Shown here piece by piece: positions 11,195 to 30,186 of a stretch of 45,086 bases of DNA (the stretch's first letter is position 1; each line of letters starts with the position of its first letter). The stretch is from Prevotella sp. Its GTDB lineage: Bacteria; Bacteroidota; Bacteroidia; Bacteroidales; Bacteroidaceae. A program made the position numbers and the translations under genes. The stretch covers positions 1 to 45,086 of the forward strand of contig JAFPVW010000032.1 in assembly GCA_017395215.1 (NCBI GenBank), read 5' to 3'. The notes beneath the pieces were generated by a model, which was not told where the DNA came from, ran no database searches, and saw nothing but the letters and a program-made list of their open reading frames with translations.

Positions 11195-11226
11195 TTTGCA
11201 CAGTTCGAAAATAATGCCTAACTTTG
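11195..11226 (+). promoter_or_regulatory. Promoter of the vWA/tubulin-like/papain-like operon
   Basis: TTTG (11195-11198), exactly 20 nt, TAACTTTG (11219-11226): a perfect Bacteroidetes promoter, 27 nt before the ATG at 11254. Confidence 0.85.
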
Positions 11227-11253
11227 CAAGTGATATACTAACCACCACCCAAG

Positions 11254-12987
11254 ATGAGGAACCCGAAAACTATCATATTACTGCTTGTCACCCTGCTGTA
11301 CGCAACTGCAATGTCAGCACAGCGCGAGCGCAACTACATCTACCTCGTTGACTGCACAAAGTCGATGACGGGCTTTGGCTGTTCGCCCGACATCTGGCAA
11401 CCCACAAAAGACTACCTCCACAATGAACTCACGAAGCACGGACCAGGCACGACACTCCACATTGTCCCTTTCCAGGGCAAAGTACACCCCGCCATAAACT
11501 TCAATGCCGGGAACCTCAAGTGGGCCGACATCGAGAAGAGTATCGACAGCTATGTGGAGATGCCCACCAACACCAACATCTGTGACGCGTGGGACGCCAT
11601 CGACCATTTTATAGACCTCCACAAAGACAACTACATCATACTGCTCACCGACGGCAAGGATAACGTCCAGGGCATGGATGCCGTGGCACGCAAGCTAAGC
11701 AGCTGGTGCGGCAAGTACCCTAACACCTACGCCTTCTATGTCCAGCTGACCAAAGCCGCCGTCGACAAAAAGGTGGCTGAAGTGATAGACATCTGCGAAA
11801 ACGAATTTGTCGTCGATGCCAGCAAAGGAAAAGATATTCCCGTCTTCGGCGGATTCGAAAAGGGCATCGTCATCTATGCCAACACCCTGAACCTCGACAG
11901 GCACCACCTGCTGGCCTTCTCGTCGGCTGGCGAATATGCCGCCAAGGCAACGTGTAGCGACCCTTGGTTCGACGTCGCTATCAGCGATGGCAAAATCAGC
12001 AACGGACGGTTAGAGGTGCAGATAAAAGCTCGGAAGCCCGTCTCCGACATCAACACTGAGCTCCCCCCGACCTACAGCTTTACCTTTGACGTTCAGTCCA
12101 GCGAGGTTCGCATCATTAACCCCACCGTCAAGGTCATCATGACCAACAAGCCGGAGCGCGCCTTAGAGCTTTTGTCCGAAGAGACCGACATCGGACGTGC
12201 GTCATGGTACGACAGCTTCCTGTTCTGGGGAGCCGACACGCCCGACACGCTTTACGCCGACCTCAAGGCTGTTTTTAACGACGAAGCCCGGAAGGACCGC
12301 TCCGCCATAGAACTGCAAGTCAGCGACGAAGAAGGCAACAACGACTTCGACCTGTTCTTCAACGGACAGCCCGTGAAAGACGGCCGGATCGTCATGCACA
12401 GCCAGAATCAGAGTCCAACCGTCCTCTCGCTCGTCTACCACCCGTCGGCCAACGAGGGCAAGCGCTACCTCAGCATAAAGCCCGTGGCCAAACACCAGCT
12501 CGACAACATCAACGACCAACCCGTAGAGCAGTACACCCTCACCCTGCGCTCACGCTACTCCGTCGGATGGAACCCGCTCAAGACCATATTGACTTGGACC
12601 GCCATCCTCCTCTTAGCAGTCCTCCTGCTCTGGTTCCTCATGCTCAGGCGCCTCTTCTTCCCGCCAATAACTGTGAAGACCATCCAGATCAGCGACCCAT
12701 ACTTTAGCAATGTCAATGTAAAAGGCAAGCGACGCGTCGTGTTCACCGACAAGAAAATGAGCCAAAGCCTCATCAGCAGACTGTTCACCGGCGAGATACT
12801 CTACAAGAAGAACGACGTTTGGACCTCACCCCTCACCCTTGAGGCCGGCTCGAAACGGAAGACACTCAGGGTGGTGCGCACGCGTGACTACACCTTCGAC
12901 CCCTACACCGCCATGCTGAAGTCACCCGAAGACTACGTCGTCGAAAACGTCAACGATAAGACAAAAATCAAAATGACCATCAATTAA
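11254..12987 (+). CDS. Membrane-anchored von Willebrand factor A domain protein (system gene 1)
   Basis: A 577-residue exported protein. Residues 1-22 are a signal peptide (IILLLVTLLYATAMSA). A vWA domain follows: the MIDAS motif is Asp33-Cys-Thr-Lys-Ser37 (a DxTxS variant of DxSxS) in LVDCTKSMTGF, and LLTDGKDN around Asp133 is the second metal-binding segment. Beta-rich sequence runs to about 440. A single membrane helix at about 445-467 (ILTWTAILLLAVLLLWFLML) is followed by an RR stop-transfer and a cytoplasmic domain of about 110 residues. The predicted topology puts the vWA domain in the periplasm and the tail in the cytosol, where it could meet the tubulin-like protein encoded 24 nt downstream. 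Function is unknown; vWA domains usually bind proteins through a metal ion. Confidence 0.85.
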   Translation: MRNPKTIILLLVTLLYATAMSAQRERNYIYLVDCTKSMTGFGCSPDIWQPTKDYLHNELTKHGPGTTLHIVPFQGKVHPAINFNAGNLKWADIEKSIDSYVEMPTNTNICDAWDAIDHFIDLHKDNYIILLTDGKDNVQGMDAVARKLSSWCGKYPNTYAFYVQLTKAAVDKKVAEVIDICENEFVVDASKGKDIPVFGGFEKGIVIYANTLNLDRHHLLAFSSAGEYAAKATCSDPWFDVAISDGKISNGRLEVQIKARKPVSDINTELPPTYSFTFDVQSSEVRIINPTVKVIMTNKPERALELLSEETDIGRASWYDSFLFWGADTPDTLYADLKAVFNDEARKDRSAIELQVSDEEGNNDFDLFFNGQPVKDGRIVMHSQNQSPTVLSLVYHPSANEGKRYLSIKPVAKHQLDNINDQPVEQYTLTLRSRYSVGWNPLKTILTWTAILLLAVLLLWFLMLRRLFFPPITVKTIQISDPYFSNVNVKGKRRVVFTDKKMSQSLISRLFTGEILYKKNDVWTSPLTLEAGSKRKTLRVVRTRDYTFDPYTAMLKSPEDYVVENVNDKTKIKMTIN

Positions 12988-13011
12988 CAGAACCAACAAA
13001 ACATACCAACT

Positions 13012-15765
13012 ATGGCAACAAAAATCAAGAGATGCCTCTACGTAGGACTTGGCGGAACCGGCATGAACGCCCTCCTACACACCAAGAAAATGTTTGTCGA
13101 GACATACGGCGAAGTACCACCCATGATAGGGTTCCTCGGCATCGACACCGACGGCGACGTCTACCAGAAAGAGCTCCCAAGCAAATACGGCCCCGTCAGC
13201 CTCGCACCCAACGAGCAGACACCCATCCTCGTCGAAGACGCACAGGCTGCCTACATCACCAGCAAGCGGCACTTCTCGTGGGTACATCCCGACAACGTCT
13301 TCGCCCTGACATCGATGACCAAGGGCGCAGGACAGATACGCAGCAACGGCCGTTTTGCCCTCATCTGCAACTTCGAGAACCTCTCTGTCAAAGTGCGCGA
13401 CGCCGTCAGCCGCATCACATCGGCCAGCATCAAGACCAACCCCAAATATGACGCCGACTTCGTGGGCGACGTCGAGGTACACATGGTATTCTCCATGAGC
13501 GGCGGCACCGGTGGAGGCACCTTCCTCGACATGGCCTACGTCATCAGGCACGCCCTCGGCAAGTGCAAGCTAACGGGTTACGCCGTGCTGCCCGACGTCT
13601 TCGAGGCCATGTCGCAATACGGTATGGAGCGCGTCAAGCCCAACACCTACGGCAGCATCGTCGACCTCGACTACTTCATGCACCTCAACGGCACCGAGGG
13701 ACTGCAGTTCGACTACGTAACCAGCACGCACGACGTCAAGAGCCGGCCATTCTCAGCCTTCTTCTTCATCGACAACAAGAACAAGGGCGGCGACTCCTAC
13801 AGCAACATCGACCAGCTCGCCGAGATGATCTCTCTGGCACTCGTCACGTCGTCGGGCGAGCTCAGCAGCTCCGTAGACTCCGTCACCGACAACGTCGAGA
13901 AGAGCATTATGAACGGCGACGGCAAGGTGGGCGACAAACGGGCATGGGTCAGCGGCATGGGAGCCTGCCAGATACTCTTCCGCGGCAGGGACATCAGCCA
14001 GATCAATGCCCTGAAGAACGCCCAGCGCATCATACAGCGCATGCTCAACAGCTGCATCGACGCCAATATCCTCGCCAACAACTGGATCGACGCCCCCGAG
14101 GTCAACATCCGCGAGAACGGCGGTGCCGAAAACGACAACGTCATCGACTTCCTGCTGCCGAAGAACCCCAAGTTCCCCCTCGAAGACATTGACGACGACC
14201 AGACAGCCGAGAAGTCGGCCGATGCCTACATCGAGAAAGTAGGCCGCCCCAAGGACGAGGAAGTACAGGCCCGCGTGCTCGAACTGAAGAACCGCGTCAA
14301 CGCCGAGCTGCACAAGCTCGTCGTCAAGGCCGTCAACCAGGAATGCGGCGTAGGACTGGCCAAGGACGTGCTCGACGCGCTCCAGAGCCAGATTGACGTG
14401 TTCCTCAGCGAGATGAACACCGAGAAGGACAACCTGACAGAGACACAGCCCCGCCTGCAGAACGCCCTGAAGGTGGCCGCTGCCGACCTGAAAGAGTACA
14501 GCCAGCGATTCTTTAAGACAAAAGGCAGACTCGCCGACCTGCGCCAGGGCGTCTGCGACGCCGCCATGGCCCTCGCCGTCAACATCCGCGAGCAGAAGCG
14601 CCGCGACGGTGCCATCACCTTCTTCAGCGCCCTGCTGCAGAACGTCACTGACGAGAAACTGAAACTGCACAACATCGAGAACAAGCTGAAGGCGGTGAAC
14701 ACGGCGTTCAACAACAAAATTGCAGCCCTGCAGAACAACGTCAGCCGCACCAATGCCGCCTCGTTCCAGATCGACCTGGCCAAGCAGGCCCTCAACACCG
14801 TCACCATCAACGACGACGAGATTCAGATTACCGACTTCATCAACAGCCTGCCCTACCCCGAGAAATTCTACGAGACAGACAACCGGCCGACAGAGGAGCT
14901 TGAGCAGGACCTGCTCGGTTACACCGCCACCCTGCCTACGGCCCGAAAGTGGGCTGCCACGACCATCGACGACATCATGAAACAGATGGACAAGGACAAT
15001 CCCGAGGAGCTGAACCACATTCTGCGCATGGCACTGGCCAAGGCATCGCCACTGCTGAGCATCAACACACGCGGCGAGGTGGGCTACAGGGTAGCACGCT
15101 TCACCTACGTCGGCGTGCCCATGGAAAGCACACTGCTGAAAGACAACGGCCGACTCGAAAGTCTCGCCGGCGGCGACAAGATCAACTTCACACGGCTCGG
15201 CATGGATGACCGTGTCATCATCTACAACCAGGTGGGCGTGGTGCCGGCCTACTTCATCGGGGCACTCGAAACCTATCGCCAGAAGTACAGCCGCAGCACC
15301 ATCTTCTCGCACTTCGACTTAAACATCTACAACAAGATGGAGAAGGACCACTTCTCGCTGATACCAGTGAAGGACGACGGGCAGAGGGACATCGAACTGT
15401 GGGTACGGGGCTTCATCTTCGGACTCATCAAGAACGAGAATGGCAAGTACTACGTCAAGAACAAAGAGACGGGCATGGCACTGCGCAACTACTGGGTCGA
15501 ACTGGCCACCTACCGCAACGATGCCTTCAACGCATTCGTCAGCAACATCCACCAGCTGAGGCCGCAGTTCAAAGACTACATCGCCACTTGGCACAAGGAC
15601 AACGGCCAGGACGCCATCAAGGCCCTGCGTGCCGACGTCAAGGCCAACTACCGCGAGAAATTCTCGCAGCTGAACATGGATGACGAGGAACTGTTTGCCC
15701 GTGGTAACGAGCAGATAGCCGACCTCATGGAGAAAGAGCTGCGCTTCGTCGAGACACTGGAATAA
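13012..15765 (+). CDS. Tubulin/FtsZ-like GTPase with coiled-coil extension (system gene 2)
   Basis: A 917-residue cytoplasmic protein of the bacterial tubulin-like group (Pfam Tubulin_2 type, by my reading). GLGGTG at 12-17 is the first nucleotide-binding glycine loop, GGTGGGT at 164-170 is the tubulin/FtsZ signature loop (T4), and NIDQLAEM starting at Asn265 is a good candidate for the catalytic T7 loop (NxDxxD/E). The GTPase core takes up about 380 residues. A long polar, heptad-rich region (about 410-590) and a C-terminal domain of about 300 residues with no family I recognise follow. It is more than twice the length of FtsZ. It is encoded between a vWA protein and a peptidase protein in the same operon. 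GTP-driven polymerisation is inferred from the motifs, not shown. Confidence 0.87.
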   Translation: MATKIKRCLYVGLGGTGMNALLHTKKMFVETYGEVPPMIGFLGIDTDGDVYQKELPSKYGPVSLAPNEQTPILVEDAQAAYITSKRHFSWVHPDNVFALTSMTKGAGQIRSNGRFALICNFENLSVKVRDAVSRITSASIKTNPKYDADFVGDVEVHMVFSMSGGTGGGTFLDMAYVIRHALGKCKLTGYAVLPDVFEAMSQYGMERVKPNTYGSIVDLDYFMHLNGTEGLQFDYVTSTHDVKSRPFSAFFFIDNKNKGGDSYSNIDQLAEMISLALVTSSGELSSSVDSVTDNVEKSIMNGDGKVGDKRAWVSGMGACQILFRGRDISQINALKNAQRIIQRMLNSCIDANILANNWIDAPEVNIRENGGAENDNVIDFLLPKNPKFPLEDIDDDQTAEKSADAYIEKVGRPKDEEVQARVLELKNRVNAELHKLVVKAVNQECGVGLAKDVLDALQSQIDVFLSEMNTEKDNLTETQPRLQNALKVAAADLKEYSQRFFKTKGRLADLRQGVCDAAMALAVNIREQKRRDGAITFFSALLQNVTDEKLKLHNIENKLKAVNTAFNNKIAALQNNVSRTNAASFQIDLAKQALNTVTINDDEIQITDFINSLPYPEKFYETDNRPTEELEQDLLGYTATLPTARKWAATTIDDIMKQMDKDNPEELNHILRMALAKASPLLSINTRGEVGYRVARFTYVGVPMESTLLKDNGRLESLAGGDKINFTRLGMDDRVIIYNQVGVVPAYFIGALETYRQKYSRSTIFSHFDLNIYNKMEKDHFSLIPVKDDGQRDIELWVRGFIFGLIKNENGKYYVKNKETGMALRNYWVELATYRNDAFNAFVSNIHQLRPQFKDYIATWHKDNGQDAIKALRADVKANYREKFSQLNMDDEELFARGNEQIADLMEKELRFVETLE

Positions 15766-15791
15766 CAGGCCACAGCCCCATACGTTTGCCT

Positions 15792-18700
15792 ATGAGACAC
15801 TGCGCTAACATCTTCATCGGACAGGACCTGAAGCCGCTGACAGCCCGTCTTGGCGAGTACGTGCTGAAGTATGGCGAGGCCGGAGCGCCGCTCTACTTCA
15901 GCGCCATGACGTGGACCTGCAAGGAGGGGGTGACAGAGGTCAAGAAGGCAGTCGGCGACAGCCAGTCCACAGCCGCCTTCGTGTCGACCATGCACGACCA
16001 GTATCACACGCGGTTAGACCCGGTGAAGACGCTTACCGGGCTAGACCGGCCCTTAGACATGCGCCACTTCTTTACCGACCTCCACCAAAGCACCGTCACC
16101 ATTAACAACCCCGGCGACAGCAACAGCCTTCTGCTCATGCTCTATGTCCCCCTCTACGACGCGGAAGCCTGTCAGGAGGCCGTCAGGATTGTCAACGCCA
16201 CAAGTGCCATACAGTCCCGCTATACCGTCGTCGTGGCGGGGCTCTGCGAGAGCCTTGGCAACATCGTCTCGCCAGAGCTGTTCCGCAATATCACTGCCGA
16301 AGAGGAAGACCGCAAGCGAGCCGTCCAGAAAGAGATGCTCAGGACGCTCGGCGAACTCAGACTGGGGCAGAACACGCTGGAGCAGATTGTCGTGATGCAG
16401 AATACCAACAGCAACGGCTTTGCACTCAATCTCGACCAGGACTCTCTGCTTCGCATCATCGGCGAACTGGCCCTCATCTGTGTCGATAAGTACAACACCG
16501 TCTTTACCCAGGCCAGCATCTTCGACAGGGAGCACATCGTAACGGCCCTTGGCCTCTCAGTGATGAATCTCGACAAGTACTACTTCGAGAACTACCTGCT
16601 GAGGCGTGCCTACCTGCGCATCATGGAGCGCGAGGACGTCACCGCCGAGGAGGTCGACCTCAACAAGGTGGCCATCATTGCCAACGCATGCCTGGCCAAA
16701 CACCAGGACCTGTTCTCCGACTTCTACGCTAAGGCCGTCACCCCGCTGTGGCGGCAGGAGGTCGCCCAGGAAGACATCATCGCACAGACGGCCAAGCCGC
16801 TCGACACAAAGTTCAGCGAAGTGTTCACCGACCTGACGGCCTATATCAACGACCCGCAGTACTCGCTGCCCGAGAAGCAGGCCATCCTGGCCGTCATCCT
16901 CGGCTACGACGACGCCCTGCTGAAGGGGAACTTGTTTACCGACCAGCAACTGACGCTCGACAACCTGGACGAGGAGGTGGCCGACTACTTCACAAAGGCC
17001 AACAACGAGTGCGTCAGAATAGAGCACCATGAGGAGCCCGAGAAGGAAGACACCATCGTCTACGGACCCCTGAAAGACCAGTGCGCCGACGCTGACGGCA
17101 ACGTGGAACTGCCAATAGAAAGACTACAGAAACTGCGCAACGAGATACGCCAGTCGACCAACTACATACGCGAGAAGAACAAGGAACTGGAGGAAATCGA
17201 CACCATGACACAGGATGCCGAGAAAAGCATGAAGCGGCTCACCGAAGACGGCTTCGTGGTCGACGGCACCGTCTACAGGTTTGACATACACCATGAGGAG
17301 GTCAAGTTCGACGAGACCTACGAACCCGAGCCGGTGACTGAGAAGAGCATCGACCTGCGCGAATTCTTCACGAAAGTGAAAGACCAGGGCGAGGTCGGAG
17401 CCTGCACCGTCTTCGCCATTGCTTCGGTCTACGAGTATATCCTCAAGTACAACGAGCTGGGCGACTCCGACCTCTCAGAGTCGTTCGTCTACTACAACGT
17501 GCGCCACGCCAACGGGAAAGACCTTGAGGACACGGGCAGCAGTTTCCAGGATGTCATCATGAGCATTGGCCAACAGGGCATCTGCACTGAGGCACTGCAC
17601 CCCTACTCACTGCCGCTCAGCCAGGAGCCAAGCACGGAGGCTTATCAAGACGCCAAGAAACGGCGCATTACCAAGGCACTCAACGTGAACGTCAGCGAAC
17701 AGGACATCAAGTCGGCCATTCAGGAGGGCTACCCCGTAGCCGTGTCGCTTAAGATTTTCGACTCGTTCTATTCCACAAGGGGTTTTGTCGAACGACCGAC
17801 CGCCGACCAGATGGCCGAGGCCGACTACGGCTACCACGCCATGGTCGTGGTGGGCTATACCGACGAGACCCGACACTTCGTCGTACGCAACTCCTGGGGC
17901 GAGCGCTTCGGCGACAAGGGCTATTGCTACATTCCTTATTCATACGTCTGCGACCCGGAGCTGAACCGCATGGCCTGCATCGTCAAGGAGGTGGACTGCT
18001 CTGGCGAGCCGGTCATCTCTGTCACAGGCGGCGGTGCCGGCAAGAAGAAAACGGTACAGTTCAACATGAGCGACTCCGTCATCAAGGCTCACGTCATCCG
18101 CAACCTCCTCAACGAGGAACAGCTGCACCTGCAGAACATGCAGGAGGAGGACTCCAGACTGAAGATAGCCTACGAGACCCTGATGCAGACGCTGGGCAAG
18201 CAGTCGATACGCAGCAAGATACAGGAGGAGCACCAGAAAGTGCTTAACGCCAGGTGGGCAAAGCTGAAGCAGCAGCGCGACGACATCAACGAGACTCAGC
18301 GCGGAGAGGCCCTGCGCAACTTCGACTCCGAGGCATGGAAAGTCAAACTCAAGACGATGGGATGTCTCGCCGCAATGGCACTTGTCTGGGGCTCCGTCGC
18401 TTCGTTCTACGACGACATCACCGACTGGCTCGAGAGCAGCTGGTGCTGGGGATTCGTCGGAGCCTTCACCCTCACACTCATCTTCCTGATTCTCTACTGG
18501 TGGCATACCAAGAGCCAGCGGCGCAAGATGGAACTGGAGTTCGAGGAGAAAACGGCCGAACTCTCCTCACGGATGCAGAAGCTGCAGATGCAGGCTGCCG
18601 AAGAGAAAATGAGAATGCACGTCGCCGGCATGATCATCGACAAACTCCTGACGCTCAGGGCTTCGCTCGACAAGAAGTACCAGGGCATGAAGTCCTATAT

Positions 18701-19274
18701 AGGCAACCTCTCGCTCTGGTACAAGGAGGAGCAGAAAAAGTACGAAACCATGGAGCCACTGGTCAAAGACCCCTTCATCCCACTGCTGTCAAACAGCCAG
18801 CTTAACAGCTACTTCGAAGATAACAGGGAGGCGATTACCCAGGGAATGCTGCTCTATGAGTATTTCAACGGGTTCAGACTCGACGACGAGGCCATCATCG
18901 CCTACAAGTGCCAGCTCAAGCAGAGCATCCTTGAGCACATCAAGATGCTGCTGGATGACTTCACCGTCTTCCGCCACATTTTCGGCACGCGAGACTACCC
19001 CTTCCTTGACAAGGAGTATGCTTCCGCCAGCCACCTGCTGCCCATCCTCGACACGAAGAGCGACCCCTTCTGCCAGATCCGCCGCTCCGCAGTCACCGTG
19101 CCACAGGCACGATTTCTCTTCATCCACACCGACCCCGCCGAGGAGCAGGCCTGGAAAACGGCCTACCCGCAGTACTTCAACATGCCACCCGTCTCGGTCA
19201 ACATCGCTTCGGTGTTCAAAATAGTGGGACTAAGGCTGCAGACGCTTCTTCCCGAAGAGGTCATTCTCGACTGA
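15792..19274 (+). CDS. Large coiled-coil membrane protein with papain-like (C1) peptidase domain (system gene 3)
   Basis: A 1160-residue protein without signal peptide. Residues 1-430 form an unrecognised domain (begins MRHCANIFIGQDL). A coiled coil lies at about 435-480. A papain-like peptidase domain at about 515-720 has Gln532 (oxyanion hole), Cys538 (QGEVGACTVFA), His682 (YHAMVVVGY) and Asn700 (VRNSWGERFGDKGY), a complete active-site set. A second coiled coil (770-850), two membrane segments (about 857-875 and 881-903) and a third coiled-coil stretch (905-990) follow, then a C-terminal globular part. With two membrane passes and no export signal, the peptidase is predicted to be cytosolic. 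I preferred ATG 15792 to an in-frame TTG at 15786. It follows the tubulin-like gene by 26 nt. Role unknown. Confidence 0.85.
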   Translation: MRHCANIFIGQDLKPLTARLGEYVLKYGEAGAPLYFSAMTWTCKEGVTEVKKAVGDSQSTAAFVSTMHDQYHTRLDPVKTLTGLDRPLDMRHFFTDLHQSTVTINNPGDSNSLLLMLYVPLYDAEACQEAVRIVNATSAIQSRYTVVVAGLCESLGNIVSPELFRNITAEEEDRKRAVQKEMLRTLGELRLGQNTLEQIVVMQNTNSNGFALNLDQDSLLRIIGELALICVDKYNTVFTQASIFDREHIVTALGLSVMNLDKYYFENYLLRRAYLRIMEREDVTAEEVDLNKVAIIANACLAKHQDLFSDFYAKAVTPLWRQEVAQEDIIAQTAKPLDTKFSEVFTDLTAYINDPQYSLPEKQAILAVILGYDDALLKGNLFTDQQLTLDNLDEEVADYFTKANNECVRIEHHEEPEKEDTIVYGPLKDQCADADGNVELPIERLQKLRNEIRQSTNYIREKNKELEEIDTMTQDAEKSMKRLTEDGFVVDGTVYRFDIHHEEVKFDETYEPEPVTEKSIDLREFFTKVKDQGEVGACTVFAIASVYEYILKYNELGDSDLSESFVYYNVRHANGKDLEDTGSSFQDVIMSIGQQGICTEALHPYSLPLSQEPSTEAYQDAKKRRITKALNVNVSEQDIKSAIQEGYPVAVSLKIFDSFYSTRGFVERPTADQMAEADYGYHAMVVVGYTDETRHFVVRNSWGERFGDKGYCYIPYSYVCDPELNRMACIVKEVDCSGEPVISVTGGGAGKKKTVQFNMSDSVIKAHVIRNLLNEEQLHLQNMQEEDSRLKIAYETLMQTLGKQSIRSKIQEEHQKVLNARWAKLKQQRDDINETQRGEALRNFDSEAWKVKLKTMGCLAAMALVWGSVASFYDDITDWLESSWCWGFVGAFTLTLIFLILYWWHTKSQRRKMELEFEEKTAELSSRMQKLQMQAAEEKMRMHVAGMIIDKLLTLRASLDKKYQGMKSYIGNLSLWYKEEQKKYETMEPLVKDPFIPLLSNSQLNSYFEDNREAITQGMLLYEYFNGFRLDDEAIIAYKCQLKQSILEHIKMLLDDFTVFRHIFGTRDYPFLDKEYASASHLLPILDTKSDPFCQIRRSAVTVPQARFLFIHTDPAEEQAWKTAYPQYFNMPPVSVNIASVFKIVGLRLQTLLPEEVILD

Positions 19275-21004: not shown

Positions 21005-21059
21005 TCACCCTTCACCCTTCACCTTTCACCCTTCACCCTTCACCTTTCACCCTTCACCC
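21005..21059. repeat. TTCACCC / TTCACCTT word repeat
   Basis: Eight consecutive 7-bp words of CACCCTT or CACCTTT run from just after the pseudouridine synthase stop into the 3' end of the facing gene, where they encode VKGER and its stop codon. Confidence 0.85.
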
Positions 21060-24000
21060 ATTCATTGAACGCCTCACCGTCTTTGAAGATAATGCCGAAA
21101 TAGAAATCTTCGTCCTCAGACGGCTCGTAGCTGAACGTCGCGTGCTTATGGAAGGTCTTTTCGCGGAAATGGTTGTCGTTGCCTATTCGTTGTCCGTCGT
21201 ATTGGAAGGAGTAGGCTGAGACGTTGAGCTTGTAAGACTTCCAGAGAGGCCTTAATCCGTTGCTCATGCCGCTGCTGCTGAAGTCGTAGTACGCACCCGT
21301 CTCGTCATCCCCTGGGTTCAGGAAACCATGACAAGGGGAGAAGGTGTCGTCGGGGCTGAAGACGACAGAGCCCCTCTTTGTCGCATAGTTGTCAGCGTCT
21401 TCCTTCCACTCGCTCTGCTCGCTAAACGTGACGTTAGCAACGGTGTAGCGACCGGGGGTCAGCTTGATGATGTCGAATGAGACGTCGTGACGGCTTACCC
21501 ATGCGGGCTCCGGGCACCCGTCGCACCAGGCCGTGCTGACGTACTGGTAGTACTGCTTGGGACCGCCCTGGCAGCTGACGTGGATCGTGTTGTCGTCGAC
21601 AATGGTTGCCGATACTTCGAACAGGTTGCTGTTGATGTCATCTTCCGTAACTGTGAGCGAGGTGAAGTCGCCTTCGGTGGCGTAGAATGTATTGTTGCCC
21701 ATGTAGTCTTGTCCGTAGTCGTAGTCGTCCTCGTCTTTCGTTACGTTAGCATTGTAGTTGAACTTAGGCCGTATTGAGAGGTACTGCAGGCTGATCTCCT
21801 CGCCGGGCTGAGGGCCTACGGGGGCGTTGCCGTCCTGGCTGATCTCGATGAGCGCCGAGCCCGTGATGCCGTACTTGGTCTTGCCCTCAAGGATGATGTG
21901 GCTGGTGTACGCCTCGCCGCTGTTCGGGCTGACGGTGATGGTGAGCTTGTTGTCAGTGAGCGTGGCTGTGATACCGTCGGAGGTCGCCCCGATGGCGATA
22001 CTCTCGACGTTGGTGCTGTCGATGGTGACAACCTGGGTGCCGCCCTGCCTGCCGAAGCTCAGCTTGTCAGGATGAAGCGCGATGTAGCCCGACTGCTGCA
22101 CGACGACGACGCTGTCGGTGGCAATGGTGTCGCCCTTGTGCGAGAGTCCCGTCAGCCTGATCACCCCGCGACGCTCGGTCATGCCTTTGGGCAGGCCCTC
22201 CCAGTGGACTGACAGCTCGTTCCTGTCCGCGAACCAGTACGCCGTCAGCCACTTGGCCTCGCTCTTCTCGTTGACGATGCTCATGTTGGGCGTGACGGTG
22301 ACCTCCTCGCTGCCCCCCAGCTCAAGATCTGTCGTGAGGGTGATCATCCGCTTGCTGACGTCGATGCGGGCGGGGTCGAGGGTCACGGTGGTGCTCCTGT
22401 CGACCAGCAGACGCTTCGGCGTGTTGAAGTCGCCGAAGATCTCAACCATCGGGTAGACCGTGTAGGTGACAGGCCGACCCGGCAGGGGGTCGATGTTGGT
22501 CATGATATAGTCGTAGGTGGGCTGCTTGCCCTTCTCGCGGAACCAGTAGTGATACTTCAGCGAGTCGGCGACGAGGTTCTTCTGCTGGTCGAAGACGGCG
22601 AACCCCACTTCGGCACCGAGGAACATGTCGCGGCTGATCGGGGCCTTGGCAAGCCAGCGCCAGGGGCGTAGCGGCGGCGTCGGGTCCTGGATGACGCTGA
22701 TGCCCGTGATGCGAGGCACAAGGGCCAGGGGCGTCGACTTCAGCGTGGCGTCGGGGGTAATGCCTGCCGACCAGTTGCCGACCTTGGCCTGTGAGACAAA
22801 CTTCAGATAGCCGGCAAGCGCGACTTGGCTCTCGGCGTCGAACTTCTTGTAGATGGGCTGCGAGTCGATGAGCTTGTAGTCACCAAGGACCGACCAGAAG
22901 GGAACGTTGGCCTCAAGCCGCACACCGGCCTCGACGCCTACCTCGGCTCCGAAGCCCAGCGTGTCGGTCTTGGCCGTGAAGGCCTTCACGGTCTTCTGTA
23001 TGAATTTGGGCGTCTTCTCCAAAGGTATGGCAAACGTGGCTTCAACCTTCGCAAAGGCGCCGAAACCTACTGACATCTGACCGGGGCCGGTCACGGAATA
23101 CTCGGTGGTGTCCCTGAGCAGCTTGGTGGTGTATTTGTTATGGGGCGTAAAGCCTGCAGGGTTATGCGACATCTCGACCAGGTCGTCGATGTCGATATTC
23201 AAGCGGTTCCACGTCCACGTGCTCTGCTTGCGGGTGGTGGCCAGTTCGAAACCTGCTACGGAGCCCTCGAGGAAGAGACCCATACCGGCCTCCACCTCGA
23301 TATATTCGCCGATGGTCTTCTTGAAGGAGGGACCGAAGGGCACCTCCATGCGGGCGTTGAGAGCGCCTGAGAGCGATGTCTTGATCTCGGAGTTGAGCAT
23401 CAAGTAGGTGTCCTGGGTGTAATTGAAACCACACGATAGCACGTCGAGGAAGAGGAATGCACGAACGGCCAGCCTGGGCTCGATGCTGGCTGACAGCGCC
23501 CCGGTGACGTCGCCGCTGATCTGGATAGGCAGACCGTCGGGCAGAAAACCGCGCGAGTGGTTCAGACTCCACGTACCGGTAAGGGTGGGCAGCGTGAGCG
23601 TATCCTCGGGGGTCAGCTGGCCGTCGTAGCCGTCGAGAATGCCGAGCCGGCGGCCGTCGTGGCGTCGGCGTGAGGCAATGCCGCCGTCACTGCGGGGTGT
23701 GGCGGCAGCCGCCTTGGCGACAAGCCGGTCGTAGACGTCGGTTATCTGCAGCGGGCCGGTCATCACGGTGATGCCGTCGGCAGCGGTGGTAACAGCCGTC
23801 ACCAGTCCGCCGAAGCCTTGGGGAATGTAGCGGCTCTTCTGCTCGATGAGCAGCTTGTCGCCCTTCTTGGGGATGAGGGCCTGAGGCGTTCCGGGAGCCA
23901 GGCGTATCCAGTAGAGCGAGTCGCTGGCTACGATGTAGTCGCCGATCTGACTGCCGGGCTGGAACACGTCGCTCTTCACCTTATTCTCAGGCGTGACGAA

Positions 24001-24261
24001 GGCGATGGAGTCGATGGCCGAGACGGGGATGCGGAACACCGAGTCCAGCGCGTAGACTTCCTGCACCACGTAGTCGTCGTGCTCCACGCCGAGGGTGTCG
24101 ACCTTCGAGTAGGCAAACCGCTGGATGTCGCCCCAGAAGAAGGCGTTGAACTGTCCGTCGTTGCGGAAGATGTAAAGCGCATCCTGCGCCCGCTGCGCAC
24201 TGACGGGCAGTCCGACTGCCGCCAGCAGCAGGCCGATGATTATTCGCACTGTTTGCTTCAT
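21040..24261 (-). CDS. Exported BACON-domain surface protein
   Basis: A 1073-residue protein with a signal peptide (MKQTVRIIIGLLLAAVGLPVSA). Residues 25-95 form a Bacteroidales N-terminal module (DALYIFRNDGQFNAFF, DDYVVQEVYALDSVFRIP) shared with the next gene. The middle (about 200-600) is beta-rich. A BACON-like Ig domain lies near 725-805 (LHPDKLSFGRQGGTQVV). The C-terminal part is unrecognised. BACON domains are thought to bind glycans or mucin. No lipobox and no T9SS tail are seen. Its last five codons come from a TTCACCC repeat. It is the last gene of a five-gene minus-strand run and starts 16 nt after the paralogue upstream. Confidence 0.8.
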   Translation of the reverse strand: MKQTVRIIIGLLLAAVGLPVSAQRAQDALYIFRNDGQFNAFFWGDIQRFAYSKVDTLGVEHDDYVVQEVYALDSVFRIPVSAIDSIAFVTPENKVKSDVFQPGSQIGDYIVASDSLYWIRLAPGTPQALIPKKGDKLLIEQKSRYIPQGFGGLVTAVTTAADGITVMTGPLQITDVYDRLVAKAAAATPRSDGGIASRRRHDGRRLGILDGYDGQLTPEDTLTLPTLTGTWSLNHSRGFLPDGLPIQISGDVTGALSASIEPRLAVRAFLFLDVLSCGFNYTQDTYLMLNSEIKTSLSGALNARMEVPFGPSFKKTIGEYIEVEAGMGLFLEGSVAGFELATTRKQSTWTWNRLNIDIDDLVEMSHNPAGFTPHNKYTTKLLRDTTEYSVTGPGQMSVGFGAFAKVEATFAIPLEKTPKFIQKTVKAFTAKTDTLGFGAEVGVEAGVRLEANVPFWSVLGDYKLIDSQPIYKKFDAESQVALAGYLKFVSQAKVGNWSAGITPDATLKSTPLALVPRITGISVIQDPTPPLRPWRWLAKAPISRDMFLGAEVGFAVFDQQKNLVADSLKYHYWFREKGKQPTYDYIMTNIDPLPGRPVTYTVYPMVEIFGDFNTPKRLLVDRSTTVTLDPARIDVSKRMITLTTDLELGGSEEVTVTPNMSIVNEKSEAKWLTAYWFADRNELSVHWEGLPKGMTERRGVIRLTGLSHKGDTIATDSVVVVQQSGYIALHPDKLSFGRQGGTQVVTIDSTNVESIAIGATSDGITATLTDNKLTITVSPNSGEAYTSHIILEGKTKYGITGSALIEISQDGNAPVGPQPGEEISLQYLSIRPKFNYNANVTKDEDDYDYGQDYMGNNTFYATEGDFTSLTVTEDDINSNLFEVSATIVDDNTIHVSCQGGPKQYYQYVSTAWCDGCPEPAWVSRHDVSFDIIKLTPGRYTVANVTFSEQSEWKEDADNYATKRGSVVFSPDDTFSPCHGFLNPGDDETGAYYDFSSSGMSNGLRPLWKSYKLNVSAYSFQYDGQRIGNDNHFREKTFHKHATFSYEPSEDEDFYFGIIFKDGEAFNEWVKGER
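23990..24210 (-). repeat. Direct repeat shared by the two BACON-type paralogues, copy 1
   Basis: The N-terminal coding segment matches 28163-28380 over long identical stretches, for example GCCGAGACGGGGATGCGGAA on the plus strand, with a scatter of substitutions. This indicates duplication or gene conversion. Confidence 0.8.
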
Positions 24262-24277
24262 AGCTGTCGTTTCTTAA

Positions 24278-27200
24278 TTAGTAGTCAAGGGCCGACGGGT
24301 CGATGGTCAGCTCGACGGTGAGCGTGGCGCTGTTGCTCTCGTTGTCCACGTAGCTGAACTCCTGCGTGGGCTTGTCATCCGTGTAGTTGTACGTCTTCTG
24401 GGTGAGTTTGGTGAACTTGACGCCGTCGCTGACTGTGCCGCTGAAGACGAAGGTTGACTTCTCGCCCGGCGTGTAGTTACTCTCCGACTCCTGCCAGCTG
24501 AGGTCGGTGAGCTGCAGGGCTACGTCGTCGCCCTTGCCGTAGAGGCCAGGAGAAGTGTAGTCGTACCAAGTGTTGCTGTAGATATGGCGGAAGCTGAGGT
24601 TTTCGACCTTGCCGCCGGTGAAGTCGAGGTTGTCGGGGATGATGTCAAACTCGATGACGTTCTGATACTCGTCGTACTCACCCTCCTTGTAGTTCTTCTT
24701 GGCCACCACGTGGAGCGTCGTGCCGTTCAGCGTGACGCTGACATTAGGCGAGGTAAAGATCTCGCCGTAGGTTTTCGTAGTGGTGCCGCCACTGGTCTTC
24801 TCAAGCATCGTGGCTGAAGCCGAGAATGCGCACGAGTTGACGGCAATGCCGCCGCCCTCCTGGGTGACGGTGACGGGGAAGGACTTCATCTCGGTGCCCG
24901 GTGCGGGGGCACTGCCCTCGAAGGCGGCCATATAGATGGTGACGGTGCCCGTGCGCTTGGCGCCGGTGGTGTTGGGCTTGGCGGTGATTTCCACATAGAA
25001 GCTGCCGTCGGCGGTCTCATAGCCTTGGGCGCTGAGCCATCCCGTTCCGTCTGTCTCCACTTTGTTGCCTATGCGGTTGTAGGTGTTGCCCAGGTAGGTG
25101 TTTACCCTCTGTGTGCCGCCCTTGGCAGAGAAGTTGAGCGTCGTGGGCGAGACGTGTGGCACTGACGGGTCTTCGGGCACATTCTGGTAGACGCTGTAGA
25201 TACGTTTCTTCGTTGTGCCGTCCTTCATCAGGAATGTCAGTTCAAAGCTTCCCTGCCGCACACCGCCGGTGGTGTTCTCCTTGACGGCGGTCAGCAGGAC
25301 AGTCATTCCCGTGGAACTGCCGCCAAGCCAGGAGTCGTTCAAACAGTGGATGTTCGTGATGTGGTCCACATTGGGACAGTTGAAGGTCACGGTCACTTGA
25401 GCATCATACTCGCCGCCGAGGTAAATGGGCTTCGGCATATAGTCGTCGCACAGTTCGGCTTCGGCACTGAGTGCCTTCTGCGTAACCTCCAGCGTGCGCA
25501 CTATCGGGTCGCCGGAGACGGGTGTCAGCGTGTAGGTGACATAGTTTGTGCGGTCCTCGTTGACGGGGTTGGCCTCGCCATAGACGGTGATGGTGGTGCC
25601 GTTGCGCGATGCCTTGATCCACTCAATGGCGGGCTTCACCTCCTGGCTCTTGATAAGCGAGGCCACGAGGTCGTCCCACGGCGTTATCTTGATCTGCACC
25701 GTCTGGCGGTCGCTATATTGCGAGCCAGCGCTTTCCTCGGCCTTCAGTGTCACCTCCGACGGCACGAGCTGCACGTCGAGGGTCAACGCCGACTGACGGA
25801 CAGTGACGGTCTTGCTATCCTTCTTACCGTCGGCCTTGGTGAGTTCAACCGTGATTTTGGCCTCGCGCGGCTCCTTCATATTGGTGTTGGGCTTGATGGT
25901 GACGTTGCACGTGTTGGAGCCCGAGCCGACACCACCACCATTGTCCACCGTCAACCACGACTCGTTGCTGCTTGTCAGGCGGAGGTCCTTAGCCGTCGTC
26001 GGATAGGTGACAGTCAGCTGCCGCTTCAGTTCGCCGTTCTGGAACTCACTGCTGTAACCCGGCACCTCCAACGGATCGGGACTCACCGTGAACGGCGACG
26101 CCTTCTGATGCACCTTGAGGGTGGCCTCGCCACGCTGTCCCCGCTCGGTGACGCCCGTAAAGATGACGTAGCCCTCACGCTCCTCCAGGTCGGGATTCGG
26201 GTCGACATCCACCTTGACGACATCACCATCGAGGGTGGGATGCAGGAACGAGTCGCCTGGCTTCACTTCAAGCTCTTTCAATGGCGACTTGATAATCTTG
26301 GCGGTATAGGTGCCGCCCTCGGCCTCGGCCTCTATCGGATCCGGCGAGAACTCGATGACAAGTTTGCCCTGTCGCACGGTATAGTCCTTAACGATGAGTA
26401 CCTCGCCCTTGGAGTTGCTGCCGACGACGTGGAGTTTACACTCGCGGCCTTCAAGCTTCTCGGGCAATGCCTTGTAATGCAGGACAAGGACCCGGTTCTG
26501 CGGCATCCAGCTGGCCGTCACCCAGTCGACACCCGTGCTCACCGCCACCTTGGGGCAGTTGGTGGCCACGTCCAGCTCGTCCATTTTCAGCGTTCCCTCC
26601 TGCACGGGCAATTCTATGTCATCGTAGTCGAGGATGGAGAAGTAGGCTGAGTCAACTACGATTTCAACCTCTGAGCAGAGGATGGGGGGCTGGCTGGGAA
26701 TGCGGACCGTGGGGAATACGGTGTAGGACGTTGTCTTACCCTTCAGCGGGTCGAGCGAGAAAGTGTACTCCACCGTCTTGCCACTGAGGAAGTTCCAGTA
26801 ATAGTCAGGGCGCTTATAGGTGGCATAGACATCGTCCTTCCAGTCGAGCACGGTGAAGCCGACATCGACGGGCAGCAGCAAGTTGCGCCCCATCTTATAG
26901 GAGGCGGTTGTTTCACCATAGTAATAATCGCCAATCTGGCCCTCGGCCTTCACGATATAGTCGGATATCTTAGGCACGATGCCGGCATTCAGCTCGAAGA
27001 ACTTCCTCCGGTTGAACCAGTTGGTCTGCCAGCCGTGCATACTGAGATAGGGGTTGGCAAAGGCGAACGGGCTGTAACTGACAATATCGTCGATGTTCAG
27101 CACGTCGTAAGTATGGTCTGTGTAATAGGTCAACGGCAGGTCGTCGGAAATGGTGGTCACGGGAATCTTGAATGAGAGCATACGGCCCAGTTCGAGACGG

Positions 27201-28441
27201 AGACCGACGCCGCTCACGCCGCAGATAAGGGGATTGTAGCACTCAAGTCCGGCCTCTAACATCACACCGCCGGTGAAAGACCCTCCCAGCGTGAGCTTCT
27301 TCAGTTCATACTCGTCGGTGTCAACACTCAAATCAGCATCGCCACTCACCTGACCGAGGTCGAGGCTGACGCCTCCCTGCCTGTAGTAATTGACCGAGGC
27401 CATCGTGTGGTAGGTACCGGAATAGAACGATTCCAGTTCCAGGCTGCCAGCAGCTTCGACGAAGATGCCGCACTTCCAGAGCACCTTGGCGTAGAGCGGC
27501 GTGTTTTCTTCGCCGAAGACTTTCCTGAAAAAAGTCAGCTTATGGGGGAAGGGCAGGTCCAGGCGCGAGGTCAGCGTGCCCGACACCTTGCCACCATACT
27601 CTATGTAGGCATCGGCGCCGATGTAGCCGTCGATGTGGACACCGGCCAGCGGGTCGACGCTCAGGAAGGAACGGGCGTGCAGCGTAGGCTCGATGTAGTA
27701 GGTTATGGAGCCTAACGGCGTGACAGACAGGGAGTAGATGTCAAAGTCGTTGATAAGGTCCTTCGACCCCGTCAGACCGACCGTGGCCCCCGTCGGCTCC
27801 AGTTCGATGGGTTCCTCCGAGCCCCACAGCAGCACCTTGCGGCCACGGGCCGAGGCCTGGTCCTGCGTGCCGACGGCCATCTTGAGCATGGCGCGCTCGA
27901 AGGCTTCCTCAGGCTGCAGGGGCTCGGTGGTGACGGTATAGCCGTCGCCACTGCTCTCAACCGACGTGACGCGGCCGCCGAAGCCGCCCGGCAGCAGGGG
28001 ACTGCTGTTCTCCTCGATGAGCCATTTGTCGCCCTTCTTGGGCAGCAGACTGACGGGGACGCTGGCCGACAGGCGGATCCAGCGCGCCGAGTCGGAGGCA
28101 ACGACATAGTCGCTAATCAGCGGGTTGGCCTTGATGACGTCATTCTTGTAGACGGTCTCGGGCGTGACGAAGGCCACGCTGTCGATGGCCGAGACGGGGA
28201 TGCGGAACACCGAGTCGAGGGCGTAGACCTCCTGCACCACGTAGTCGTCGTGCTCAATGCCGAGGGTGTCAATCTTCGAGTACTCAAAGCGCTGGATGTC
28301 GTCGAAGAAGAAGGCATTAAACCGCCCGTCGTTTCGGAAGATGTAGAGCGCGTCCTGTGCCTGCTGCGCGCTGGCGGGCAGCATGCCGACAGCTAACAGC
28401 CAAAAGCTAACAGCCAACAGTCTATAAACAAAGTGTTTCAT
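24278..28441 (-). CDS. Giant exported protein with multiple BACON-like domains
   Basis: A 1387-residue protein. The signal peptide (FVYRLLAVSFWLLAVGMLPA) is partly encoded by a short repeat. Residues 27-97 repeat the N-terminal module of the downstream protein. A beta-rich region runs to about 690. About five Ig-like BACON-type domains lie between about 697 and 1200, marked by FSPDPIEAEAEGG, FTVSPDPLEVPGY and LNFSAKGGTQRV, each ending in a VxQ strand. A C-terminal domain ends SALDY. Probably cell-surface and glycan- or protein-binding. It overlaps the kelch-like gene by 4 nt (ATGA) and precedes its shorter paralogue by 16 nt. No catalytic motif seen. Confidence 0.8.
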   Translation of the reverse strand: MKHFVYRLLAVSFWLLAVGMLPASAQQAQDALYIFRNDGRFNAFFFDDIQRFEYSKIDTLGIEHDDYVVQEVYALDSVFRIPVSAIDSVAFVTPETVYKNDVIKANPLISDYVVASDSARWIRLSASVPVSLLPKKGDKWLIEENSSPLLPGGFGGRVTSVESSGDGYTVTTEPLQPEEAFERAMLKMAVGTQDQASARGRKVLLWGSEEPIELEPTGATVGLTGSKDLINDFDIYSLSVTPLGSITYYIEPTLHARSFLSVDPLAGVHIDGYIGADAYIEYGGKVSGTLTSRLDLPFPHKLTFFRKVFGEENTPLYAKVLWKCGIFVEAAGSLELESFYSGTYHTMASVNYYRQGGVSLDLGQVSGDADLSVDTDEYELKKLTLGGSFTGGVMLEAGLECYNPLICGVSGVGLRLELGRMLSFKIPVTTISDDLPLTYYTDHTYDVLNIDDIVSYSPFAFANPYLSMHGWQTNWFNRRKFFELNAGIVPKISDYIVKAEGQIGDYYYGETTASYKMGRNLLLPVDVGFTVLDWKDDVYATYKRPDYYWNFLSGKTVEYTFSLDPLKGKTTSYTVFPTVRIPSQPPILCSEVEIVVDSAYFSILDYDDIELPVQEGTLKMDELDVATNCPKVAVSTGVDWVTASWMPQNRVLVLHYKALPEKLEGRECKLHVVGSNSKGEVLIVKDYTVRQGKLVIEFSPDPIEAEAEGGTYTAKIIKSPLKELEVKPGDSFLHPTLDGDVVKVDVDPNPDLEEREGYVIFTGVTERGQRGEATLKVHQKASPFTVSPDPLEVPGYSSEFQNGELKRQLTVTYPTTAKDLRLTSSNESWLTVDNGGGVGSGSNTCNVTIKPNTNMKEPREAKITVELTKADGKKDSKTVTVRQSALTLDVQLVPSEVTLKAEESAGSQYSDRQTVQIKITPWDDLVASLIKSQEVKPAIEWIKASRNGTTITVYGEANPVNEDRTNYVTYTLTPVSGDPIVRTLEVTQKALSAEAELCDDYMPKPIYLGGEYDAQVTVTFNCPNVDHITNIHCLNDSWLGGSSTGMTVLLTAVKENTTGGVRQGSFELTFLMKDGTTKKRIYSVYQNVPEDPSVPHVSPTTLNFSAKGGTQRVNTYLGNTYNRIGNKVETDGTGWLSAQGYETADGSFYVEITAKPNTTGAKRTGTVTIYMAAFEGSAPAPGTEMKSFPVTVTQEGGGIAVNSCAFSASATMLEKTSGGTTTKTYGEIFTSPNVSVTLNGTTLHVVAKKNYKEGEYDEYQNVIEFDIIPDNLDFTGGKVENLSFRHIYSNTWYDYTSPGLYGKGDDVALQLTDLSWQESESNYTPGEKSTFVFSGTVSDGVKFTKLTQKTYNYTDDKPTQEFSYVDNESNSATLTVELTIDPSALDY
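28163..28380 (-). repeat. Direct repeat shared by the two BACON-type paralogues, copy 2
   Basis: Counterpart of 23990-24210; encodes the module with DALYIFRNDG and HDDYVVQEVYALDSVFRIP. Confidence 0.8.
28391..28420. repeat. AGCTAACAGCCAA word repeat in a signal peptide
   Basis: Two copies of AGCTAACAGCCAA in tandem. On the minus strand they encode LLAVSFWLLAV, the hydrophobic core of the 1387-residue protein's signal peptide. Confidence 0.75.
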
Positions 28442-30186
28442 CGCTTCATCACTTTATAGGTTACATTGTCGGCCTTCACAACATACACGCCACGGGGCAG
28501 CGCAGAGAGGGACAGACGGTAGGTGCCGGCATGCTGCGCCGTAAGCTGGCGAACGAGCTTGCCGTCGAGCGAGTAGACGCCGACGGCAGCGCCGGCCTTG
28601 ATGCTGCTGATGACGAGCTCGCCGTCCTCATAGTCGACCGTTGCAGGGGCTGACTGCAGCTCGCTGACGCCCGTCACGCTGCGCTTCTCGTAGGTAAAGC
28701 GCAGGATGTCGGTCAGCTGATAGGTAACGTCGGCCTTGGCTGAGACCACGCGCAGGCTGGTGCCCTCGAAGCGCACCTCGGGCTTCTCGGCGAGCATATA
28801 GGTGGTCTGCACGTGGTCCTTGGTCTCAATGACGAGGAAGTTGCGGTCGACCATCGTGCCGGGGTCGGGCTCGGTGTCGCCCATGCCAGCCACCGGCGGG
28901 GTGAAGATGTAGGCGTCGGCAGAGGGACTGCCCAACGGGACAACGCCGCCCGTACAGGCCAGGCGCCCGTCGCTGAGCAGCGTCCAAGAGGCGGTCTCGG
29001 TCAGGTCGTGGTTGAAGCCCGGAGCCGAGGCGAGCGTCCACTCCTCGGTGACGTAGTTGAAGCTGAGTATGTGGAGCGTCTCATCCTCGTAATAGCCGCT
29101 GTGGCCGATGATGTAAGCCTCCTGGCGGGCCTCGTTGACGATGACGCCGCCGCGGTAGTCGATGCTGGCGCCGGTCTCAGGATGGCGCATGGGTATCTGC
29201 AGGCTGCCGAACATGTAGGTCTCGTCCTCCTCGGCGCAGTAGAGCAGCAGTACGTAGCGGTAGCCGTCCTCGATCGACTCGTCCACCTGGCCGGCAAGAA
29301 TCATGTAGAAGTTCTCGCCGCCCTGCGTGAAGTGGTAGTCGGAGCTGCTGATGTCGGCGGGAAGAGGCGTGGGGATGAGCTTATCGTCGTAGGGCGTCGC
29401 CGTATACTCTACCTTGCCGGTAGCCATGTCGTAGATGTCGGCCAGCAGCACCTTCGTGCCGTCTTTGAGGGTGTAGAGCTCTATCGGCTCCTCATTGTTG
29501 TCGAAGTACGACATCGAGATGATGTGGCCGTCGGGCAGGTGGAACAGGTAGGGATGGTAGCGGCCGTCCATGTTGCCGACGCCCTTGAACGACGAGCCGT
29601 CGTAGCAGTCCATCGCGTTGTCGAGGCCACCGCCGCTGTTGCCGCTGACGAAGACCTTGCCGCCGGCGGTGATGGCCTTGCAGCCGGCGCGGCCGATGGT
29701 CATGTCGGGGCCTGCGGTGAACGACTGCGTGGCAGGGTTGAAGATATCGGTCTTCTTGGCCACACTGAGGGTCTGCTGACCCGTCTTGCAGCCGCCCACC
29801 ATGAAGCGTCCGTCGCTGAGCCTGGCTGTAAAGCCGTCGGCGTGGGGCGCGCTGAGGGGCAGCGTCTTCCAGCTGCCGTTCTGCCAGAGTTCGGCAACGG
29901 TCACCAGATTCCTGTCGGTGGTGGTGCCGCCTACGACGACGAAGCCGCCGTTGGCTGTCGGGAACTGCAGGTGGTCGATGCGGCCCCTGGCCATGTCGGG
30001 CAGCTTCTCATACTTCAGCGTGGCCATGACGCCCTGTCGGGTGGCGTCGGCACGGGTGATGCGGCGGGTGGTGCGCTCAATGCGCTTCACGGTTTTCTTG
30101 TGAGCCGCGTTGACGGGTTTCACGGCGGCCGTGCTGAGCAGCGGCCATGCCAGGAGGCTGACGATGGATAATGCTATTCTGTTCAT
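28438..30186 (-). CDS. Exported kelch-like beta-propeller protein with T9SS-type C-terminal tail
   Basis: A 582-residue protein with a signal peptide (MNRIALSIVSLLAWPLLSTAA). Repeats such as GGFVVVGGTTTDRN, LSDGRFMVGGCKTG, KAITAGGKVFVSGN and LSDGRLACTGGVV fit a kelch/galactose-oxidase-like propeller between about 60 and 430. The C-terminal about 80 residues end in LPRGVYVVKADNVTYKVMKR, the pattern of type A sorting domains of the type IX secretion system. It is encoded between the two-fold repeat protein (75-nt gap containing a hairpin) and the giant BACON-type protein (4-nt overlap). Ligand unknown. Confidence 0.8.
   Translation of the reverse strand: MNRIALSIVSLLAWPLLSTAAVKPVNAAHKKTVKRIERTTRRITRADATRQGVMATLKYEKLPDMARGRIDHLQFPTANGGFVVVGGTTTDRNLVTVAELWQNGSWKTLPLSAPHADGFTARLSDGRFMVGGCKTGQQTLSVAKKTDIFNPATQSFTAGPDMTIGRAGCKAITAGGKVFVSGNSGGGLDNAMDCYDGSSFKGVGNMDGRYHPYLFHLPDGHIISMSYFDNNEEPIELYTLKDGTKVLLADIYDMATGKVEYTATPYDDKLIPTPLPADISSSDYHFTQGGENFYMILAGQVDESIEDGYRYVLLLYCAEEDETYMFGSLQIPMRHPETGASIDYRGGVIVNEARQEAYIIGHSGYYEDETLHILSFNYVTEEWTLASAPGFNHDLTETASWTLLSDGRLACTGGVVPLGSPSADAYIFTPPVAGMGDTEPDPGTMVDRNFLVIETKDHVQTTYMLAEKPEVRFEGTSLRVVSAKADVTYQLTDILRFTYEKRSVTGVSELQSAPATVDYEDGELVISSIKAGAAVGVYSLDGKLVRQLTAQHAGTYRLSLSALPRGVYVVKADNVTYKVMKR

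Follow-up and report, generated by a model that had tools for sequence, protein, structure and literature searches.

The FtsZl1 (Tubulin_2) family was predicted by Makarova and Koonin (2010; PMC2875224), who linked it with vWA and membrane proteins and with membrane remodelling, and Kaur et al. (2020; PMC7159879) describe tubulin and vWA components in GAP1-N2 GTPase-centric conflict systems, in which the tubulin theme occurs in Firmicutes and Actinobacteria. The genomic link between vWA and tubulin/FtsZ-like proteins, which a preliminary description of the present locus had noted, is therefore already known. The locus analysed here is a three-gene operon in a 45,086-nucleotide (nt) stretch of Prevotella sp. 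DNA (GCA_017395215.1, contig JAFPVW010000032.1; this whole stretch is termed the window), which encodes a vWA protein (gene 1), a Tubulin_2 GTPase (gene 2) and a papain-like protein (gene 3). What seems to be new is that the FtsZl1/vWA pair has a constant protease partner, itself apparently a dead tubulin. The trio is tentatively read as an envelope-spanning signalling system of Bacteroidales with a vWA sensor, an active GTPase and a GTP-dead tubulin-fold protease partner, a reading to which we assign a probability of about 0.4.

A comparison with the system of PMC2875224 reveals several shared features: gene 2 belongs to the family by profile, the vWA partner carries a metal ion-dependent adhesion site (MIDAS), a coiled coil follows the GTPase domain, and the partners are tied to the membrane. 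The two differ in that the P-loop GTPase, kinase and OmpA partners are not recognised in the operon, whereas the papain-like protein is a constant partner. The words “papain”, “protease” and “peptidase” are absent from the main text of that paper, whose Additional files 5 and 6 may hold the protease gene. The peptidase link had been put forward as undescribed, and no account of a papain-like partner of the FtsZl1/vWA pair was found in the open-access literature searched; a functional study of FtsZl1 proteins was likewise not found in the literature searched. The GAP1-N2 systems, as set out in PMC7159879, resemble the operon in that a tubulin and a membrane vWA protein share one neighbourhood, and their Firmicutes versions hold two tubulin genes. 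However, their TRAFAC GTPase and GAP1 were not found in the operon, and no such GTPase is seen in the three genes or in eight scanned flanking proteins of the window. The only mention of papain in that source concerns a peptidoglycan peptidase of another system. In two further sources, Tubulin_2 proteins are set apart and omitted from the main trees (PMC9871819), and tubulin is not mentioned in an account of papain evolution (PMC10380794).

Gene order and co-inheritance of the trio

The operon lies on the + strand and consists of gene 1 (11254..12987, 577 amino acids (aa)), gene 2 (13012..15765, 917 aa) and gene 3 (15792..19274), the last of which starts either at the ATG at 15792 (1160 aa) or at a TTG at 15786 (1162 aa). 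The gaps are 24 nt and 20 nt, the latter becoming 26 nt from the ATG, which bears out the close spacing reported previously.

The co-occurrence of the three genes in other genomes, on which the preliminary description had made its proposal depend, was found repeatedly. A scan with gene 2 alone against genome_contigs (one genome per species, 84,980 species; pattern-based and reaching close relatives only) returned seven loci, and genes 1 and 3 adjoin gene 2 in all of them. Among 200 genomes of the genus, a gene-3 profile gave six full-length matches, including the window, with genes 1 and 2 adjacent in 6/6, and the remaining matches listed cover parts of the papain region only. Additionally, L062 was found by a Tubulin_2 search in the family, and L088 and L089 were found by a gene-3 search in 60 relatives. 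The trio thus amounts to 13 distinct loci (L040 and L087 counted once), plus the divergent L070 as a fourteenth, and in the 13 loci the order and strand are the same and the gaps are mostly short. The pairwise distances of the three proteins are correlated, with r values of 0.97, 0.92 and 0.89 (78 pairs, with shared phylogeny uncorrected).

Among 393 genomes of the order, the only full-length gene 3 in the matches listed is that of the window, which indicates that the system is sparse. Matches to Tubulin_2 itself come from 22 family genomes out of 151 searched, 19 of them passing the cut-off, and from 13 phylum genomes out of 395, 10 of them passing it, the window being counted in both. In 33 regions taken for the other Tubulin_2 matches, with three weak ones omitted (G083:C496, G121 and G241), the Tubulin_2 gene was recognised by profile in 28 and gene 3 in L062 and L070 only, so that the protease appears to be linked to a single branch of the Tubulin_2 family. 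The L070 locus encodes a vWA protein (E = 2e-4), a Tubulin_2 protein and a 1290-aa papain protein (L070:2957-6826), which has no transmembrane (TM) segment over the threshold and carries an appended lipase-like region (GHSQGG; Mbeg1-like, E = 9e-5; Lipase_3, E = 3e-4, below the cut-off). This gene-3 relative adjoins an M48-TerB protein.

A Bacteroidota-type promoter, TTTG-N20-TAACTTTG, is located upstream of the three genes at 11195..11226 on the + strand. It was located with the Bacteroidota -33/-7 consensus, which has four matches in the window against 0.11 expected from shuffled sequence, and the promoter called perfect in the preliminary description is thereby confirmed. No inverted repeats were found at the ends of the trio. 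A viral origin was considered and rejected, as no gene 2 relative was confirmed among 66 pattern-matched stretches of viral contigs and the phage collection gave one weak match with 24% identity. A plasmid origin was also rejected: 32 plasmid records match gene 3, none across most of its length, and the 15 matches listed cover only residues ~499-747, the papain part. In L177-L179, Fumble stands beside an MFS gene with no trio at that place (46 of 80 genomes had an MFS match), and no clean empty site is seen there, the far side not being syntenic with the window.

Predicted folds and conserved active sites

Gene 2 matches Tubulin_2 (PF13809) with an E value of 2e-53 and 182 bits (cut-off 27), and its loops T1 (GLGGTG) and T4 (GGTGxG(T/S)) are kept in 13/13 loci. 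The predicted model has a tubulin fold, in agreement with the 917-residue tubulin-like GTPase proposed earlier, and the lack of such a fold, named in the preliminary description as a refuting outcome, is not observed. Residues 1-345 (13012..14046, approximate boundaries) form the nucleotide domain with T1 and T4, up to the strand-helix 312-345; residues 346-690 (14047..15081) form a helical/coiled-coil insert; and residues 691-780 (15082..15351) form the second tubulin domain (strands 696-702, 724-728 and 734-745), all on the + strand. The motif NIDQLAE, which had been singled out before, is real and corresponds to the start of helix 266-281 in the model. In PMC2875224, the elements past H5 were not placed and the C-terminal domain was unmatched; in the present model the second tubulin domain follows the coiled coil, which suggests that this FtsZl1 protein is a complete tubulin fold interrupted by a coiled coil. 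A profile of gene 2 gave only chance coiled-coil matches among solved structures, with no tubulin or FtsZ. Gene 2 is predicted to be an active tubulin-family GTPase, which would hydrolyse GTP and may form filaments.

The papain-like domain of gene 3 (residues 520-718, 17343..17939, + strand) matches Peptidase_C1 (PF00112) with an E value of 2e-19 and 70.8 bits (cut-off 20.7). Residues Gln534, Cys540, His684 and Asn702, numbered from the TTG start (Cys540 is Cys538 of the preliminary description), are invariant in the 13 trio loci and are also present in L070, which upholds the complete Cys/His/Asn active site noted earlier. The best solved relatives by profile are the cysteine protease 3ois (E = 2e-45) and cathepsins, and gene 3 is predicted to be proteolytically active. 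Papain-family proteases are usually secreted with a propeptide. Gene 3 resembles family C1 in its complete Gln/Cys/His/Asn set but differs in that it is predicted to be cytosolic, membrane-bound and located inside another fold. A TM hairpin is placed at residues ~853-904 (18342..18497, + strand) by hydropathy, with the first helix inferred from relatives; among 12 gene-3 sequences, two TM segments over the threshold are present in seven, one in three (the window, L040 and L062), four in L045 and none in L070.

The predicted model of gene 3 reveals a tubulin fold around these parts, a feature absent from the preliminary description and added by the present analysis. Residues up to ~290 (15792..16655, + strand, approximate boundary) form a tubulin-like alpha/beta domain without the glycine-rich T1/T4 loops, and residues 1100-1162 (19083..19271, + strand) are taken to complete the fold (strands 1109-1113, 1136-1138 and 1145-1154); the structural alignment range, of which only the ends are visible, reaches residue 1162. 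No GxGGxG-type T1 or GGTGxG-type T4 loop is present in any of the 13 loci, with two scattered glycines remaining at T4 in L089 and L140, and gene 3 is therefore labelled “tubulin-fold” and not “tubulin GTPase”. In alpha/beta-tubulin and BtubA/B, two unlike tubulins assemble. Gene 3 is similar to these proteins, CetZ and TubZ in its predicted fold but has no GTP loops, and its insert contains a protease, coiled coils and membrane helices. The earlier proposal had cast the protease as an effector or maturation factor of the filament; judging from the model, however, gene 3 probably has the tubulin fold itself, with GTP loops missing and the protease housed in the insert, and is not a separate effector docked on the filament.

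Gene 1 matches the Pfam VWA family with an E value of 6e-4, just short of the Pfam cut-off, and the MIDAS (DxTxS, TxT, TDG) is complete in the window protein. The DxTxS and TDG motifs are intact in 13/13 loci and TxT in 12/13 (L045 deviates), and the vWA gene adjoins the Tubulin_2 gene in all 13. The N-terminus is signal-peptide-like by eye, a single TM segment over the threshold is found by hydropathy at residues 445-463 (12586..12642, + strand), and the ~110-aa tail that follows is predicted to be cytosolic, all of which is consistent with the signal-anchored vWA protein described before. In L062 and L044, gene 1 is split into a gene for a vWA protein with a signal peptide and a second gene with a lipoprotein-like signal (by eye), a TM segment and the tail, which fits a periplasmic sensor with a transmembrane transducer. 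The vWA domain is predicted to be periplasmic with only the tail cytosolic, so that gene 1 resembles a sensor/transducer as much as the envelope tether proposed initially.

Genes around the trio and other Tubulin_2 operons

A gene for an Endonuclease_NS (PF01223, NucA-type) nuclease follows gene 3 on the same strand in L039, L040, L041 and L042. All four were recognised by phmmer, the two scanned match PF01223 with E values of 2e-52 and 5e-53, and an N-terminal TM segment is present; a small extra protein lies between gene 3 and the nuclease in L040, and the gap is 215 nt in L041. NucA-peptidase System 3 of PMC7159879 also combines a peptidase with an Endonuclease_NS nuclease, and proteolytic activation is proposed there. 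Its peptidase is trypsin-like, whereas that of the trio is papain-like, and in the trio the nuclease is optional (4/13, not in the window) and the tubulin pair is the core.

Among 88 flank proteins from 12 loci, the 25 families listed of 86 include at least four Endonuclease_NS, at least four TIR, at least four AAA and at least three TerB proteins. AAA+ proteins are near the trio in L039 and L088 (two), TerB in L039 (two) and L041 (with DnaJ), and TIR in L042 and L088, one TIR being fused to an FGE-sulfatase domain (L042); the surroundings of L039 and L042 are alike, and these loci are therefore not independent. L042 also holds a kinase-AAA protein (L042:18012-19811). TIR matches were obtained in five of nine trio-bearing genomes searched; in G564 all 10 lie 4-28 kb from the trio, and in G1124 all four lie within about 14 kb. 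These neighbours suggest a conflict or stress role for the trio. Many proteins of the TIR clusters (L171, L172, L088, L042 and L174) have long C-terminal regions, and AAA+ genes and, by eye, sigma-factor-like genes in both genomes accompany them. Identity with a known defence system was rejected, as PADLOC gave only unconvincing matches for the three proteins (best E = 1e-3, in the helical region of gene 3). In the PADLOC scan of the flanks, the IetA and PD-T4-6 matches are the L042 kinase-AAA protein and may reflect only shared domains; one protein of the flanks, outside the ten that were re-scanned, gives a match to PDC-S27, a phage-defence candidate (E = 2e-191; 25 of 66 families listed).

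In the window itself, the eight scanned flanking proteins include fucosidase, Fumble/BcrAD, MFS, DKNYY and RluA matches. Three large - strand genes occupy 21040-30186 and encode a 1073-aa protein (no Pfam match at E 1e-3), a BACON-domain protein of 1387 aa and a 582-aa protein with Kelch repeats and a type IX secretion system (T9SS)-type sorting tail.

Elsewhere in Bacteroidota, a second recurrent Tubulin_2 operon contains a small TM protein, Tubulin_2, a Big_2 protein and several secreted proteins, with parts common to 15 loci (L054, L055, L057-L061, L063-L069 and L076); no protease was seen in the one example scanned, L061. In L079, the gene after Tubulin_2 (operon at L079:3925-7485) encodes a protein kinase with an Hsp70-like region, and an Endonuclease_NS-like gene lies ~6 kb upstream on the same strand. 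In L074 (L074:5339-6913), a fusion of a PBP-like domain and OmpA comes after Tubulin_2, in agreement with the OmpA link of PMC2875224.

Proposed mechanism and rival explanations

In the mechanism that we tentatively favour, with about the same confidence as the signalling role as a whole, the trio would act as an assembly-gated protease switched by a periplasmic signal. Gene 1 would place its MIDAS-type vWA domain in the periplasm, linked by one TM helix to a small cytosolic domain, and the gene 3 hairpin would tie that protein to the inner membrane, the insert between its two tubulin domains comprising the protease, the coiled coils and the hairpin. The vWA domain would sense a periplasmic event and relay it to the cytosol, upon which gene 2 would assemble in a GTP-dependent manner with gene 3 as the non-hydrolysing partner, as in alpha/beta-tubulin. 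This assembly would cluster the inserted protease at the membrane and switch it on, and the activated protease may cut or release effectors. In some strains the operon includes a membrane-anchored NucA-type nuclease, and in others TIR, TerB and AAA+ genes are found close by. In its boldest and rather doubtful form, a “tubulin signalosome”, the active tubulin and the dead, protease-bearing one would co-assemble at the inner membrane on a vWA signal, and polymerisation would activate the protease and, through it, variable effectors (a periplasmic nuclease, TIR proteins or a lipase).

Several observations weigh against this proposal. Profile comparison (hhalign) of the whole gene 3 and gene 2 alignments gives a probability of 0.3, and their cores and parts give 0.0-0.5, which does not exceed the values for shuffled or reversed columns. 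When the first 290 columns of gene 3 are compared with gene 2, the best local path (193-266 to 242-327) agrees in register with the fold match, but its score does not exceed those of the controls. A Pfam scan of gene 3 yields no tubulin match. With Foldseek by itself the top match is a C11 protease (E = 0.011), followed by FtsZ (E about 0.02), and structures of G proteins and integrin I domains are returned as well; the best match in the viral library is a tubulin (E = 0.026), and small GTPases (Ras-like) and vWA proteins rank shortly after it. Model confidence is poor in the papain region (pLDDT, a per-residue confidence score, in blocks of 27-55). Owing to the missing profile link, the weak Foldseek matches and this part of the model, gene 3 is called tubulin-fold and not a proven homologue. 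It is conceivable, if unlikely, that the N-terminal domain has a different Rossmann-like fold whose likeness to tubulin is convergent, and that gene 3 is a plain papain-like protease with accessory domains; the mixture of Foldseek matches, the lack of sequence similarity to gene 2 and an alignment depth of only 12 sequences favour this explanation, set against the tubulin fold of the predicted model. Additionally, the window gene 3 passes the TM threshold with only one hairpin helix (885-903). In the neighbourhood, the nuclease is not seen in 9/13 loci, the window included (the L139 contig stops 1.1 kb past gene 3), TIR lies beside the trio in only two of nine trio-bearing genomes and four of the nine (G000 included) have no TIR match, and the flanks of the window, L041, L044, L062, L089 and L140 look mostly metabolic or housekeeping, mostly by eye.

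Such housekeeping-like flanks are what a membrane-remodelling module of FtsZl1 and vWA proteins might show, with a filament that would shape envelope components or move them and a protease whose sole part would be the maturation or turnover of the filament proteins. The association of FtsZl1 with vWA and membrane proteins in PMC2875224 and the prediction that the products of genes 1 and 3 are membrane proteins and that of gene 2 polymerises are consistent with this explanation; however, presence in 6/200 genomes of the genus is unlike a general envelope function, and nuclease, TIR and TerB neighbours do not point to membrane shaping, which leaves it somewhat improbable. The same patchiness suits an anti-phage or anti-conjugation system, in which phage at the envelope would be detected by the vWA protein, whereupon the protease would trigger an abortive response or a periplasmic nuclease. 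The membrane-anchored nuclease in four loci, the TIR clusters in two genomes, the L042 TIR-FGE-sulfatase and kinase-AAA proteins, the lipase-like region of L070 and a similarity in style to the conflict systems of Kaur et al. (PMC7159879) speak for it, yet it appears unlikely in view of the PADLOC result, the lack of plasmid records spanning most of gene 3 and the lack of confirmed viral relatives of gene 2. Flanks that vary between loci would also be expected of three unrelated genes lying side by side by chance, an explanation refuted, and given almost no weight, by the 13 loci, in which order and strand agree, most gaps are short and the divergence is mirrored.

The trio gives FtsZl1 proteins a fixed enzymatic partner with an active site that is open to testing, and the models suggest that a GTP-dead tubulin whose insert holds an enzyme can fill this place. 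If true, the tubulin signalosome would be the tubulin counterpart of the inflammasome, and if co-assembly controls the protease, this would represent a form of signalling new to cytoskeletal polymers.

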